From a virus, in IMG/VR virus record IMGVR_UViG_3300022074_000396, positions 1-22,998 of that record: a stretch of DNA of 22,998 nucleotides; one strand, 5' to 3'. The notes under the pieces were generated by a model. The model was not told the DNA's origin and searched no databases. It saw only the letters and a list, made by a program, of their open reading frames with translations. This document shows, piece by piece, positions 13,920 through 19,173 of this stretch (within the stretch, counting starts at the first letter, position 1; each line of letters starts with the position of its first letter). A program made the position numbers and the translations under genes.

Positions 13920-14051
13920 ATGGCAAAAGGAATAAGCTTCACTCACCGTGAAAAACCCAAAAAGAAAAGAAAAGGAATCCACTCCAAAAACAAAAGCCGA
14001 ACCAAAGGAGGAAAGCAATACGAAAAACGATACAACGGTCAAGGGCAATAA
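13920..14051 (+). CDS. Very basic 43-residue protein
   Basis: Starts just after the previous stop. MAKGISFTHREKPKKKRKGI is followed by HSKNKSRTKGGK and an end QYEKRYNGQGQ. It is about 40 percent Lys/Arg/His with no hydrophobic part. From memory, short basic proteins with R-x-G-x-H-S/A-K...K-x-Y-x-G-Q-G occur in many phages near lysis or structural genes, which supports it being real. A nucleic-acid or envelope binding role is possible; none is established. Confidence 0.65.
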   Translation: MAKGISFTHREKPKKKRKGIHSKNKSRTKGGKQYEKRYNGQGQ

Positions 14052-14922: not shown

Positions 14923-15977
14923 AAAACCAAAAACGATACCGTCTGAATGAAGATGAGTGGCGATTGATTGATGATTATAGACAAGACAAAGAAAACAAAG
15001 CACTACTAGTAGAAGAATGTAACGAAGCTGGAATTGATGTTGGCTCTGTTCATCATTATTGGTACAAGAGCAAACGCTTTTCAATATTTGCCAAGCCAAA
15101 CGATTTCTCAAGGGATGAATTTCTCAAAAGTATTGAAGATTTAATTTCTAACTATTCACCTTCTTATCCATCAATTGACTATCCGAAAAGAAAAGAAGGA
15201 CATCTTTTGGTAATAAACCCCGCAGATGTTCATATTGGTAAATATGCAGACGCTTTAGAAACTGGAAATACTTACGATGTAAAAACAGCTAGAAAACGCA
15301 TTTTAGACGGTGTTAGGGGGATTATCTCCAAGTCGGATGGGTTTACTGTTGAAAGGGTGTTATTTTGCATAGGAAATGATATTTTGCACACGGACAATAT
15401 TCACGGAACAACTTCAAGAGGAACAAGACAGGACACCGATGGCAAATGGTATAGACACTTCACCACAGCTCTTGAAGTATATGTTGAATGCGTTGAAATG
15501 CTTATGAATATCGCTCCTGTGGATTGTGTCCATTCAATGAGCAATCACGACTATATGAGTGGCTTTCATTTGGCACACGCTTTGAAATCTTGGTTCAGAA
15601 ACACCGAATCAGTAAGCGTGGATGACTCACCAATTCATCGAAAATATTATGTTTACGGAAGCTCATTGATTGCCTTAACTCATGGAGATGGGGCTAAAAG
15701 TAATATTTTACCCTTATTAATGGCTCAAGAGAAGCCAGAGCTTTGGGCTAAAACTAAGCACCGATACTGGTATCTGCATCACATACACCACAAGCAACGA
15801 TTTAAGTATTTAACGAGCTTTGATGATATTGGAGTTACTTTAGAGTTCTTGAGAAGTCCTAGCGGCACGGATGCGTGGCACTATCAAAAGGGTTATACTG
15901 GCTCTCCGAAAGCTGTTGAGGGTTTTATTCATTCAAAAGAAAATGGTCAGATTGCGCACTTGACACATATATTTTAA
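14919..15977 (+). CDS. Calcineurin-like metallophosphoesterase
   Basis: A 352-residue protein with all the metal-binding motifs of the calcineurin-like superfamily in order: D103-x-H105 (NPADVHIGK), G152-N-D154 (GNDILHTDN), N209-H-D211 (SNHD), H255-G-D257 (THGDG) and H288-x-H290 (LHHIHHK). Residues 1-60 form a separate small helical part (YRLNEDEWRLIDDYRQDKEN... VHHYWYKSKRFSIF) that could contact DNA or another protein. Substrate may be nucleic acid or a nucleotide; it cannot be told. It overlaps the holin by 4 nt and is the last gene before the strong terminator at 16037. Catalytic class is strongly supported. Confidence 0.88.
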   Translation: MKNQKRYRLNEDEWRLIDDYRQDKENKALLVEECNEAGIDVGSVHHYWYKSKRFSIFAKPNDFSRDEFLKSIEDLISNYSPSYPSIDYPKRKEGHLLVINPADVHIGKYADALETGNTYDVKTARKRILDGVRGIISKSDGFTVERVLFCIGNDILHTDNIHGTTSRGTRQDTDGKWYRHFTTALEVYVECVEMLMNIAPVDCVHSMSNHDYMSGFHLAHALKSWFRNTESVSVDDSPIHRKYYVYGSSLIALTHGDGAKSNILPLLMAQEKPELWAKTKHRYWYLHHIHHKQRFKYLTSFDDIGVTLEFLRSPSGTDAWHYQKGYTGSPKAVEGFIHSKENGQIAHLTHIF

Positions 15978-16036: not shown

Positions 16037-16064
16037 GGGGCTTTTTAGCCCCTTTTTCTTTTTT
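16037..16064 (+). terminator. Strong intrinsic terminator of the late block
   Basis: GGGGCT (16037-16042) and AGCCCC (16047-16052) form a perfect 6-bp stem with a TTTT loop, followed by TTTTTC and seven more T. It follows the phosphoesterase gene by 59 nt and separates the structural/lysis block from the next promoter. Confidence 0.92.
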
Positions 16065-16146: not shown

Positions 16147-16177
16147 TTGTGTAATTGGTTGGGAGTGCATATATTAG
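16147..16177 (+). promoter_or_regulatory. Bacteroidota-type promoter for second gene block
   Basis: TTG (16147-16149), 20 nt, TATATTAG (16170-16177), close to the Bacteroidota -33 TTTG/-7 TAnnTTTG layout. It lies after the terminator and 33 nt before the first ATG of the next block. A second TATATTAG with TTG 19 nt upstream occurs at 21336-21365, which supports both. Confidence 0.65.
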
Positions 16178-16210: not shown

Positions 16211-16363
16211 ATGACAACAAAAGAACTACAACTAACAGACAAAGAACTAAAACTTTTACTATCAAAATTAGTTCAATCAACAAGCGATAAAAGTTTAGAA
16301 GACCCTAAATTATTAGTAAGTCAATTATACGACAAATTACACGAAACATTAAAAACAAAATAA
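16211..16363 (+). CDS. Small helical protein of unknown function, first gene after promoter
   Basis: A 50-residue protein, MTTKELQLTDKELKLLLSKL and on, rich in Lys, Leu and Thr and probably two helices (KELKLLLSKLVQSTSD; KLLVSQLYDKLHETLK). No family recognised. It is the first frame after the 16147 promoter, with an A-rich leader ending AAAACAATG like the next three genes but without the hairpin that precedes those. A host-takeover or regulatory role is only a guess from its early position. Confidence 0.65.
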   Translation: MTTKELQLTDKELKLLLSKLVQSTSDKSLEDPKLLVSQLYDKLHETLKTK

Positions 16364-16390
16364 TTAACAACAACTAAAAACAAACTAACC

Positions 16391-16429
16391 CCACCGCCCC
16401 GCACTGAAAGAAATGCGAGGTTTTGGTGG
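16391..16429 (+). repeat. Hairpin leader repeat, copy 1
   Basis: Outer stem CCACC (16391-16395) with GGTGG (16425-16429). Inner stem CCCCGCA (16397-16403) with TGCGAGG (16414-16420), one C-A mismatch. Loop CTGAAAGAAA. Lies 32 nt before the ATG at 16462. Much richer in GC than its surroundings. Confidence 0.8.
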
Positions 16430-16461
16430 TATAAAACAAACATTAACAAAAACACAAAACA

Positions 16462-16743
16462 ATGGAAAACAAATTTTCAAAAAAGAAGTACAACAGAAAC
16501 TCAATAACTGTTACAGCTGACTCGGTTTACACTTCAGACGCTAATGATAAGTTCGTATACAACGAAAAGGCAACTGAATTGATACACGACACTTTACAAG
16601 TTTTAATAAATAGTCCGAACCCTTTGCGTTCAGAATATGGTTTTAACGAATCAGATTTTGAATTTATAGCACAATTTAGAGCAAAGCAGCAGTCTTTAAT
16701 AGACGACTGTTCATATTTCTTACAAAAATGTAAAGGATTCTAA
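16462..16743 (+). CDS. Protein of unknown function (93 aa)
   Basis: No family recognised. MENKFSKKKYNRNSITVTAD is basic and polar; the rest is mostly helical (NEKATELIHDTLQVLINSPN, ESDFEFIAQFRAKQQSLIDD) and ends with CSYFLQKCKGF, two Cys six residues apart. Preceded by hairpin copy 1 and an A-rich leader. It is well separated from both neighbours and the only long open frame in its stretch. Confidence 0.75.
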   Translation: MENKFSKKKYNRNSITVTADSVYTSDANDKFVYNEKATELIHDTLQVLINSPNPLRSEYGFNESDFEFIAQFRAKQQSLIDDCSYFLQKCKGF

Positions 16744-16759
16744 TAATAGCACAACAAAC

Positions 16760-16800
16760 ACCACCACCCCGCACTGAAAGAAATGCGGGGATTTGGTGGT
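16760..16800 (+). repeat. Hairpin leader repeat, copy 2
   Basis: Outer stem ACCACC (16760-16765) with GGTGGT (16795-16800). Inner stem CCCCGCA (16767-16773) with TGCGGGG (16784-16790), all paired. Loop CTGAAAGAAA. From 16768 to the ATG at 16826 it differs from copy 3 at only two bases. Confidence 0.85.
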
Positions 16801-16825
16801 AGTAACTAACACTAAAAACAAAACA

Positions 16826-17035
16826 ATGGAAACAAAAAAAATTACTTTTACGGAAACTCTAAAAGAATTAGAAATTTGGATAGATAATGTACAATTCGAT
16901 TTAGAGCAAGATTGGAACGAAGAAAAGGAAGAAATGCAAATACAGCTACAACAATTACTTATAGCTAAAGCAAATTTAGAGCAGGTAATGAAGCACGGAA
17001 AGCAGATATTTTCTTCAAGTATATCACTTAGATAA
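16826..17035 (+). CDS. Small acidic coiled-coil-like protein (69 aa)
   Basis: Starts at ATG 16826; an in-frame TTG at 16793 lies inside the hairpin stem and is unlikely. METKKITFTETLKELEIWID is followed by a long charged helix (QFDLEQDWNEEKEEMQIQLQ, then QLLIAKANLEQVMKHGKQ) that reads as a coiled coil. No family recognised. Its leader and start are nearly identical to those of the next gene, so the two may share control. Confidence 0.72.
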   Translation: METKKITFTETLKELEIWIDNVQFDLEQDWNEEKEEMQIQLQQLLIAKANLEQVMKHGKQIFSSSISLR

Positions 17036-17047
17036 CAATAACCAACC

Positions 17048-17086
17048 CCACCGCCCCGCACTGAAATAAATGCGGGGATTTGGTGG
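17048..17086 (+). repeat. Hairpin leader repeat, copy 3
   Basis: Outer stem CCACC (17048-17052) with GGTGG (17082-17086). Inner stem CCCCGCA (17054-17060) with TGCGGGG (17071-17077). Loop CTGAAATAAA, one base different from the other copies. Lies 26 nt before the ATG at 17113. Confidence 0.85.
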
Positions 17087-17112
17087 TAGAAACTAACACT
17101 AAAAACAAAACA

Positions 17113-17676
17113 ATGAACTCAATCAGCTACTATCCTCAAGGAGTGTTCTTAAAAAAAGGGATTGATAACCCCCCAACCTCTTATCTTACATTTAAGGAGT
17201 TTACAGAACTCCACTCAAGCCCAAACTTGAAATCACAAATTGAATCAATTAGATGTTTTGATTATGGCTCTTGGCAATACAAAAGCGCAAAAAAGAGATT
17301 GCCTTGCGTTTTAATGAATAAGTTTGCCTACAACCTTACAGAAGCATTCCAAAAAGAAACTTCATATAAGCCATTTGATGTTGATTTAAAAGACAACTCC
17401 ATTTCTAAAGTTTTAAGATTTAAAAAAGCCATCAAGGAATTATCTTGTTTCGTTGTAGAAAGCCCTTCTGGAGGAATTAAGTTCTTTCTTAAAATAAACT
17501 TCAATACAAAAGACAAAAAAGAATATAGAAGAAAATACGATTTAATTGTGGAGCATTTGGAGAAGAAGTTTGATATTGTATTGGATAAGATGCAAGGAAA
17601 CATCAAGCAGCCATATTTTCTAACTTACCAAAAGGATGCAAAATTTATAGACAGAGATTTTAACTTTAATTTTTAA
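17113..17676 (+). CDS. BT4734/VirE_N-like primase-fold domain protein
   Basis: Starts at ATG 17113; a TTG at 17080 is inside the hairpin. The 187 residues resemble the BT4734-like (VirE N-terminal) domain of Bacteroidota, which usually leads a larger helicase or primase protein. Features seen are KKRLPCVLM (60-68), KPFDVDLKD (86-94) with D89-x-D91, CFVVESPSGGIKFFLKINF (112-130), and the ending YFLTYQKDAKF (168-178). DxD followed by S-x-SGG-x-K is the order of catalytic motifs in archaeo-eukaryotic-type primases, but catalysis is inferred. No helicase follows, so this is a stand-alone domain. It heads a cluster of replication-like genes. Confidence 0.65.
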   Translation: MNSISYYPQGVFLKKGIDNPPTSYLTFKEFTELHSSPNLKSQIESIRCFDYGSWQYKSAKKRLPCVLMNKFAYNLTEAFQKETSYKPFDVDLKDNSISKVLRFKKAIKELSCFVVESPSGGIKFFLKINFNTKDKKEYRRKYDLIVEHLEKKFDIVLDKMQGNIKQPYFLTYQKDAKFIDRDFNFNF

Positions 17677-17679
17677 ACA

Positions 17680-17976
17680 ATGACAAACGATTTAATTTCG
17701 AGCTTATTCTTTAATCCTAAAGAGGAGATAAAAACAAGAGTTCTTAATGCTGATATGGTAGAAGCTACAATTAATCAACTTATCGCAGAACTAAAAGAAC
17801 AAGAGATGCGCAATGCTGAATTGATAAAAGTGTATGAGCAAGAGAAAGATTTCACTGGCTTAGCTATCACAGAAGGAGTAAACAAAGGGCTTCAAATAGC
17901 ACTGATTCACCTGCGTAAATTGAATGCTGATATATTATGGAAACAATTAAACTTGAATACCAATGAAAATGATTAA
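17680..17976 (+). CDS. Protein of unknown function (98 aa)
   Basis: Starts 3 nt after the primase-like gene. MTNDLISSLFFNPKEEIKTR, then a long helix (ATINQLIAELKEQEMRNAEL) and a second helical part (NKGLQIALIHLRKLNADIL). No known family recognised. It is soluble, acidic in the middle, and overlaps the following small membrane protein by 14 nt. Its place suggests the replication operon. Confidence 0.72.
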   Translation: MTNDLISSLFFNPKEEIKTRVLNADMVEATINQLIAELKEQEMRNAELIKVYEQEKDFTGLAITEGVNKGLQIALIHLRKLNADILWKQLNLNTNEND

Positions 17977-18723: not shown

Positions 18724-19173
18724 ATGAATGAAAAACTACAAACAATCCAAGAGGAAATAAAAAAAATAAAGTTTTTAGCAGAAGAGCTAGCTGATATTCC
18801 TTTTGGTTCAATAGACCAAGGTTCTAGAAAAAGAAGGCACGCACTAGCAAGAACAGCGGCGGCTGCTTTTGTAACTTGTGAAATAGGATTGAACTACGAC
18901 CAAGCAAAATTCTACTTTAAAAGACACAGAACTTCTTTTTATCACTATAATAAAAAGCATTTGTCTTATATGGAAAACCCTAAGATTTATCCAGAATATT
19001 ATCAATTTTACATAATGCTTAGAGATTTATATTTGAATAATGAAGAAAGCCTTTTCAAATCAAAAAGAACTTATGACTTTTATCAAGAGATAGAAAAAGC
19101 TCAACAGCAACAAAAAGCTATTGAAAGAAGATTGAAGAAACTAAACAAAGAAGCTGAACTATTAGGATTGTGA
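18724..19173 (+). CDS. HTH protein resembling DnaA domain IV
   Basis: 149 residues. After a helical start, residues 34-79 read RKRRHALARTAAAAFVTCEI, then GLNYDQAKFYFKRHRTSFYH and YNKKH. This resembles the DnaA C-terminal DNA-binding domain (basic R-R, a helix, L-S/N-x-x-x-I, then the R/D-H-T/S-x-x-x-H box), here as KRHRTSFYHYNKKH. A C-terminal charged coiled coil (EIEKAQQQQKAIERRLKKLN) follows. Likely binds DNA near the replication genes, perhaps at an origin. Its stop overlaps the GTG start of the next gene. Similarity is read by eye and needs a profile search. Confidence 0.5.
   Translation: MNEKLQTIQEEIKKIKFLAEELADIPFGSIDQGSRKRRHALARTAAAAFVTCEIGLNYDQAKFYFKRHRTSFYHYNKKHLSYMENPKIYPEYYQFYIMLRDLYLNNEESLFKSKRTYDFYQEIEKAQQQQKAIERRLKKLNKEAELLGL

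Follow-up and report, generated by a model that had tools for sequence, protein, structure and literature searches.

Organization of the early operon

The window, by which we mean the whole stretch of DNA analysed, is an IMG/VR virus record of 22,998 bases, and since its first gene is cut at the edge it is probably a fragment of a phage. Its gene content is that of a tailed phage, with terminase, portal, head, tape measure and DNA repair exonuclease genes followed by a replication block. The exonuclease gene ends at 15977 and the first early gene begins with an ATG at 16211; a terminator and a promoter lie between them. The predicted promoter at 16147-16177 is of what we take to be the Bacteroidota type (TTTG / TAnnTTTG). 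It aligns with the equivalent signal in six related contigs, which have TATATTTG at the early promoter, upstream of variable cassettes. Behind it the operon runs in the order 50-aa gene, hairpin 1, 93-aa gene, hairpin 2, 69-aa gene, hairpin 3 and BT4734-like gene. The three hairpin cores (16397-16420, 16767-16790 and 17054-17077) thus occupy the first three intercistronic gaps, while the early and replication genes 3' of the BT4734-like gene are densely packed and have no hairpins. The features are as follows.

16037..16052, + strand: intrinsic terminator at the end of the preceding gene block, with a T tract behind it
16147..16177, + strand: predicted early promoter, TTG at 16147-16149, 20 nt, then TATATTAG at 16170-16177
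16211..16363, + strand: operon gene 1, 50 aa, a cassette gene with no element upstream
16391..16430, + strand: copy 1, whole element, R2 73.2 bits; outer helix CCACC 16391-16395 / GGTGG 16425-16429; inner stem 16397-16403 / 16414-16420 with one C-A mismatch; loop CTGAAAGAAA 16404-16413; spacer TTTT 16421-16424
16431..16461, + strand: A-rich unstructured leader from copy 1 to the ATG at 16462
16462..16743, + strand: cassette gene between copies 1 and 2, 93 aa, no Pfam or PHROG match
16760..16800, + strand: copy 2, whole element, 69.4 bits; outer helix ACCACC 16760-16765 / GGTGGT 16795-16800; inner stem 16767-16773 / 16784-16790; loop CTGAAAGAAA 16774-16783; spacer ATTT 16791-16794
16801..16825, + strand: A-rich leader from copy 2 to the ATG at 16826
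16826..17035, + strand: cassette gene between copies 2 and 3, 69 aa, no Pfam or PHROG match
17048..17087, + strand: copy 3, whole element, 77.2 bits; outer helix CCACC 17048-17052 / GGTGG 17082-17086; inner stem 17054-17060 / 17071-17077; loop CTGAAATAAA 17061-17070; spacer ATTT 17078-17081
17088..17112, + strand: A-rich leader from copy 3 to the ATG at 17113
17113..17676, + strand: gene 3' of copy 3, 187 aa, weak match to the BT4734-like N-terminal domain / primase-helicase family
17680..17976, + strand: first gene of the conserved early block

The only promoter found in the operon is the one upstream of gene 1, and a search for sense intrinsic terminators found none downstream in the window's early operon and none at the element copies. 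Two proteins are recorded in passing. The BT4734-like N-terminal domain (17113-17676) is encoded alone, without the helicase part customary in its family, and 13920-14051 encodes a very basic 43-aa protein (KKKRKGIHSKNKSRTKGGKQYEKRYNGQG) with a weak match to phrog_17967, a family of unknown function, that is a possible nucleic-acid binder.

Three copies of a double-stem hairpin

An earlier note on this DNA had described three double-stem hairpin units in these gaps, and all three are present. The core pattern, allowing up to three mismatches, occurs exactly 3 times in the window and 0 times in 100 shuffles, and the + strand folding z-scores of the three copies are -2.2, -4.6 and -4.2. The inner stem that the note had given for every unit, CCCCGCA/TGCGGGG, does not extend to copy 1, which has TGCGAGG on its 3' side and hence the single C-A mismatch. 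The next ATG follows GGTGG by 32, 26 and 26 nt (copies 1, 2 and 3), within the 25-32 nt given in the note. Copies 2 and 3, thought to differ at two bases over about 60, in fact differ at 3/68 positions between CCACC and the ATG, and two of those three positions vary throughout the family. The A-rich leaders 3' of the hairpins resemble the leader of the promoter-proximal gene; since that gene has no hairpin, the start signal itself does not include one. Bacteroidota hosts mostly initiate translation without the usual Shine-Dalgarno signal. A Bacteroidota promoter within the element was considered and rejected, there being no TAnnTTTG at the proper distance.

The element recurs with a rewritten stem and a retained loop

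Searching the viral contigs of IMG/VR for the exact 24-base core returned 31 stretches. Further copies were gathered from contig fragments by scanning viral contigs with sequence patterns, giving 119 copies (107 non-redundant); because they were gathered by pattern, these counts are not an unbiased sample and conservation at the searched positions is partly selected. Matches to the loop pattern that fell inside coding regions and had poor stems (among them L043, L045, L153 and L168) were discarded. About a hundred further sequences of uncultivated phages have the same signal, with the stem rewritten and the loop kept. In each copy a stem of 7 bp carries the loop CUGAAANAAA, or in rare cases CUG(U/C)AA- or CUGAGA-, and on the basis of these sequences we call the loop GNRA-like. 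The stem is followed by a conserved NUUU-GGUGGUA, which pairs with the upstream CCACC in most copies.

Several scans relaxed one part of the pattern at a time. When seven loop positions were freed, the sole loop form recovered was G-(A/T)-(A/G)-A-N-A-(A/C). True matches in the loop-free scans had GAAA, GUAA, GCAA or GAGA, which preserves GNRA and leaves the following base unconstrained, and forcing a non-A at the second GNRA position left 3/29 matches with perfect stems (GCAA, GCAA and GUAA). The loop C, U, G, the fourth A of GNRA and two further A residues are invariant, an invariance imposed in part by the search patterns. Freeing the closing pair or the outer stem pairs yielded paired variants (CCTCGCA/TGCGAGG, CCTCGCA/TGCGGGG, CCCCGCC/GGCGGGG and CCGCGCA/TGCGCGG). 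In a free-stem scan the inner stem was unconstrained, and only the loop and TTTGG(N)(R)GTA were fixed, with gaps from 5 to 11 allowed. This returned 67 non-redundant perfect 7-bp stems, all at gap 8, against 0 perfect stems and at most 4 pairs at other gaps. A scan with the alternative 3' tail TTTNGGGTR separated 14 perfect stems from 13 chance matches with 0-1 pairs.

The earlier note knew of no named element of this kind, and that agrees with our searches. None of the 4227 families of the Rfam 15 covariance models matched above its gathering threshold, and the best sub-threshold matches were at chance level; the element resembles Flavo-1 and other Bacteroidota motifs in Rfam as a covarying structured RNA, but it belongs to none of these families. 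No published description was found in the open-access literature searched.

Covariation and wobble pairs point to a folded mRNA

The element consists of an outer helix of 5-6 bp, a 1x4 internal loop (R / NUUU), a GC-rich helix of 7 bp and a 10-nt GNRA-type loop, CUGNRANAMA. Among the 107 non-redundant copies, all 13 pairs (seven inner and six outer) have changed on both sides. Both-sides-changed cells numbered 143, compared with 49 +/- 5 in shuffles, and the signal was lost when the partner strand was slid. Pairing holds in 99.7% of cells for the inner helix and in 61% for the outer. With the register left free, the outer strands scored 12.81 with their own partner versus at most 12.61 when exchanged, and 0/500 permutations scored as high. 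Conservation is stronger in the 3' tail NUUUGGUGGUA than in its pairing strand, and the tail is retained where pairing is lost. An H-type pseudoknot between the loop A residues and UUU was rejected, since one nucleotide could not span seven base pairs.

Read on the mRNA (+) strand, the inner-helix wobbles comprise 26 G-U and 1 A-C, and from this asymmetry of 26:1 it follows that the RNA of the gene strand folds. The earlier note had offered an RNA role (a processing or stability element, or a riboregulator) together with DNA alternatives, and had stated that dyads lacking compensatory changes in related phages would speak against RNA. The opposite was seen, with all seven inner pairs compensated, and covariation, wobble asymmetry and placement on the mRNA strand together support the RNA role. 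Protein-binding operators in DNA are disfavoured, because the paired positions covary while their letters change. As the three window copies recur in about a hundred other phage sequences with stem rewritten and loop kept, we consider them a previously undescribed element: almost certainly a cis-acting structured RNA with a function on Bacteroidota phage mRNAs.

The element lies between cistrons of unrelated genes

Of 117 copies with enough sequence, 97 have an ATG-initiated ORF 22-55 nt 3' of the core (5 on the opposite strand), which leaves about 20 without one in the expected range. An intercistronic position, with a same-strand stop codon at most 60 nt upstream as well, applies to 89/117 copies, versus 3.6% of sites drawn at random from those loci. 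The upstream stop codons cluster about 17-24 nt 5' of the core. A distant-ORF set intended as a gene-annotation control was left out, being too rich in spurious ORFs. Positioned by means of ribosome footprint sizes, the hairpin would sit just past the terminating ribosome and just ahead of the initiating one.

Seventy families are represented among the downstream genes, most of which are small and lack annotation; a methyltransferase and Mom-like, DnaD-like and primase-like proteins occur as single members. The element is therefore not the switch of one gene. In three lineages the gene upstream encodes a major head protein, and the junction after such a gene is a classic point of expression change. 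The element lies directly 3' of the major capsid protein gene in L067, L076, L077 and L248; L299, with a 556-aa upstream gene lacking a family match, may be similar. The earlier description of a leader ahead of small early genes needs two changes. The element is not restricted to early genes, and since the operon's first gene lacks it, its position is intercistronic and not that of a 5' leader. The suggestion of origin iterons was not supported. Clustered identical sites in double-stranded DNA would be characteristic of iterons, but the pairs of the element covary and its copies are spread over unrelated genes, some of them 3' of capsid genes and altogether beside 70 unrelated gene families. 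Nor does it resemble REP, RAYT or other dispersed repeats, with their many copies in both orientations; it occurs at 1-4 copies per contig in the sense orientation.

Distribution and comparison with terminators

Across 84,980 bacterial and archaeal species (one genome each), the relaxed core gave seven matches, two of which were in Pedobacter in prophage-like surroundings; the others look like terminators, chance matches or a stray contig. Two Lachnospiraceae matches (L081 and L085) look like terminators. Among 395 Bacteroidia genomes a convincing match was found only in Pedobacter zeae, and outside Pedobacter there were only terminator-like matches of about 27-42 bits with other loops. None of 17 cultivated phages, nearly all of Bacteroidota, gave a convincing score, the one weak match being to a Riemerella phage at 18.9 bits, and Blast searches of cultivated phages with several consensus variants returned either nothing or chance-level matches. 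A match in Cellulophaga phage Ingeline was rejected; it lies inside coding sequence, and that genome has no model match. Because the bacterial-genome and cultivated-phage scans were nearly empty, the element belongs mainly to uncultivated phages. Their hosts would be Bacteroidota, judging by the Pedobacter prophages, the promoter type and the Bacteroidota-type proteins. The Pedobacter-type prophage-like copies are L082, L084, L188 and L121; the last, which is the second element copy in the L082 genome, has the loop variant CTGAGATATA and a weakened stem.

These scans bear on whether the element might act as a partial terminator of transcription or as an attenuator, reducing the expression of genes 3' of it. 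A GC-rich 7-bp stem followed by NUUU, located after a capsid gene and after first genes, would be compatible with this. However, an intrinsic terminator combines a GC-rich hairpin with a U tract of about 7-8, and here about 3-4 U precede GG, whereas the window's true terminator has a T tract; the earlier judgement that these are not simple terminators was sound. Moreover, termination would need neither a conserved loop nor an outer helix. Where the model matches host chromosomes weakly, the sites are real terminators whose loops differ, which makes the element and terminators distinct classes. We regard partial termination as improbable.

Variable gene cassettes surround the element

Nine contigs related to the window broadly share the order exonuclease, gap, small cassette or cassettes, core early genes. 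The cassette genes are non-homologous between related phages, are separated by the hairpin and lie behind the conserved promoter. A hypervariable site for small early genes between promoter and replication block is seen at 16211-17676 of the window and in L005, L008, L012, L019, L024, L025, L031 and L070. The element lies directly upstream of the gene corresponding to that at 17680 in L005, L012, L025, L031 and L070, and is absent there in the window and L008. Some orthologous genes thus have the element immediately in front and others do not, so that no particular gene requires it.

Stem sequences are identical in 12/17 pairs within a contig and in 16% of pairs between contigs, and this sharing suggests duplication or gene conversion. 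Together with the variable cassettes between copies, it also raises the possibility of a DNA-level module, a repeated boundary for recombinational shuffling of small early cassettes. In phage T4, PeSL are reportedly repeated stem-loops between variable small early genes that carry a promoter and a terminator. The element is likewise a repeated stem-loop between such genes, but it has neither promoter nor T tract and its structure covaries as RNA. Recombination requires sequence identity and not compensatory changes, and neither the near confinement of U-G wobbles to the mRNA strand nor the tight spacing to stop codons would be expected of a recombination site. A DNA-level module is therefore very improbable as the main function, although cassette shuffling can be a side effect.

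Candidate readers of the loop

RNA hairpins that bind proteins typically combine an invariant loop with a variable stem, and the unrelated downstream genes would make a regulon-like set. Both points fit a translational operator, at which a phage-encoded loop-binding protein would shut off the following small genes in a timed manner. The hairpin, however, ends about 15-43 nt 5' of the ATG, mostly outside the initiation footprint, and no cognate protein was found in all bearers, so that we consider such an operator rather unlikely. No protein family was common to all bearers. The commonest one found, a DnaA-domain-IV-like family present in 35/104 element-bearing loci versus 1/105 others, was rejected as the cognate factor for its limited presence among the bearers. 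The window encodes a 149-aa protein at 18724-19173 that is DnaA domain IV-like by eye and has no Pfam match. No shared small protein that could be an N-like arginine-rich candidate was found across the element loci examined.

Discussion

Known phage RNA signals offer several points of comparison. The lambda boxB hairpin is read by an N-like arginine-rich peptide and HK022 put by RNA polymerase itself, and an antitermination or pausing element of the lambda nut/boxB or HK022 put kind, acting on nascent RNA, was weighed in this light. The element shares with boxB a GC-rich stem and a GNRA-type loop with an extra free base (CUGAAA-like), a conserved UUU comes right after the stem, and copies lie near the early promoter. 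However, boxB has a 5-bp stem, a 5-nt loop and an adjoining boxA, while the element has 7 bp, a 10-nt loop and an outer helix, and no boxA-like conserved flank was found within 18 nt upstream or 20 nt downstream. The put RNAs are about 70 nt long, form two stem-loops and lie downstream of early promoters (PMC9378689). The element shares with put that it is a cis-acting phage RNA, about 60-70 nt in size and close to early promoters, but put has two stem-loops and occurs once behind each early promoter, whereas the element is a single hairpin with an internal loop, several per operon at successive junctions. It is also tied to stop and start codons. Because there are no sense terminators ahead of it in the window's early operon, because it repeats at gene junctions and because capsid junctions carry copies as well, a nut- or put-like effect is less likely, and we hold it to be unlikely overall.

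The nearest working analogy may be the RNase III sites of the T7 early region, which are intercistronic processing hairpins. In both cases, repeated hairpins with an asymmetric internal loop lie in the gaps of an early operon and each gene has its own start region. The element differs from the T7 sites in its near-invariant loop, its shorter helices and its presence 3' of capsid genes, and the invariant loop exceeds what that model accounts for.

Since the element is a conserved RNA of the mRNA strand, with a near-invariant loop, at junctions of unrelated early and late genes, we propose that it punctuates polycistronic transcripts. The hairpin would fold in the intercistronic space, between a ribosome departing from the upstream gene and another that starts on the downstream gene, and an RNA-binding factor of host or phage would recognise it through the loop. 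It would thereby set the expression of the two flanking cistrons apart, most plausibly by guiding or blocking RNA processing and so protecting the flanking mRNA ends, and the A-rich start region of the following gene would stay open. Punctuation through processing, stability or translational uncoupling is, by itself, a proposal to which we give somewhat less than even weight. For the full statement, a loop-read intercistronic punctuation element with a processing-type route, we see the case as evenly balanced; counting against it, processing alone would not require an invariant loop. More tentatively still, a single GNRA-type loop code, widespread in unrelated phages, might serve one dedicated Bacteroidota reader and control expression junction by junction. 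Candidates for such a reader would be RNA polymerase, a nuclease, a protein associated with the ribosome or a new RNA-binding protein of the phage.

To our knowledge, hardly anything is known of post-transcriptional control in phages of Bacteroidota. A strongly covarying element common to about a hundred phage contigs provides a defined bait for an RNA-binding factor. It also makes it possible to recognise accessory cassettes of early genes, many of them without a known function, and the hypervariable cassette site is a place to seek anti-host or anti-defence genes.
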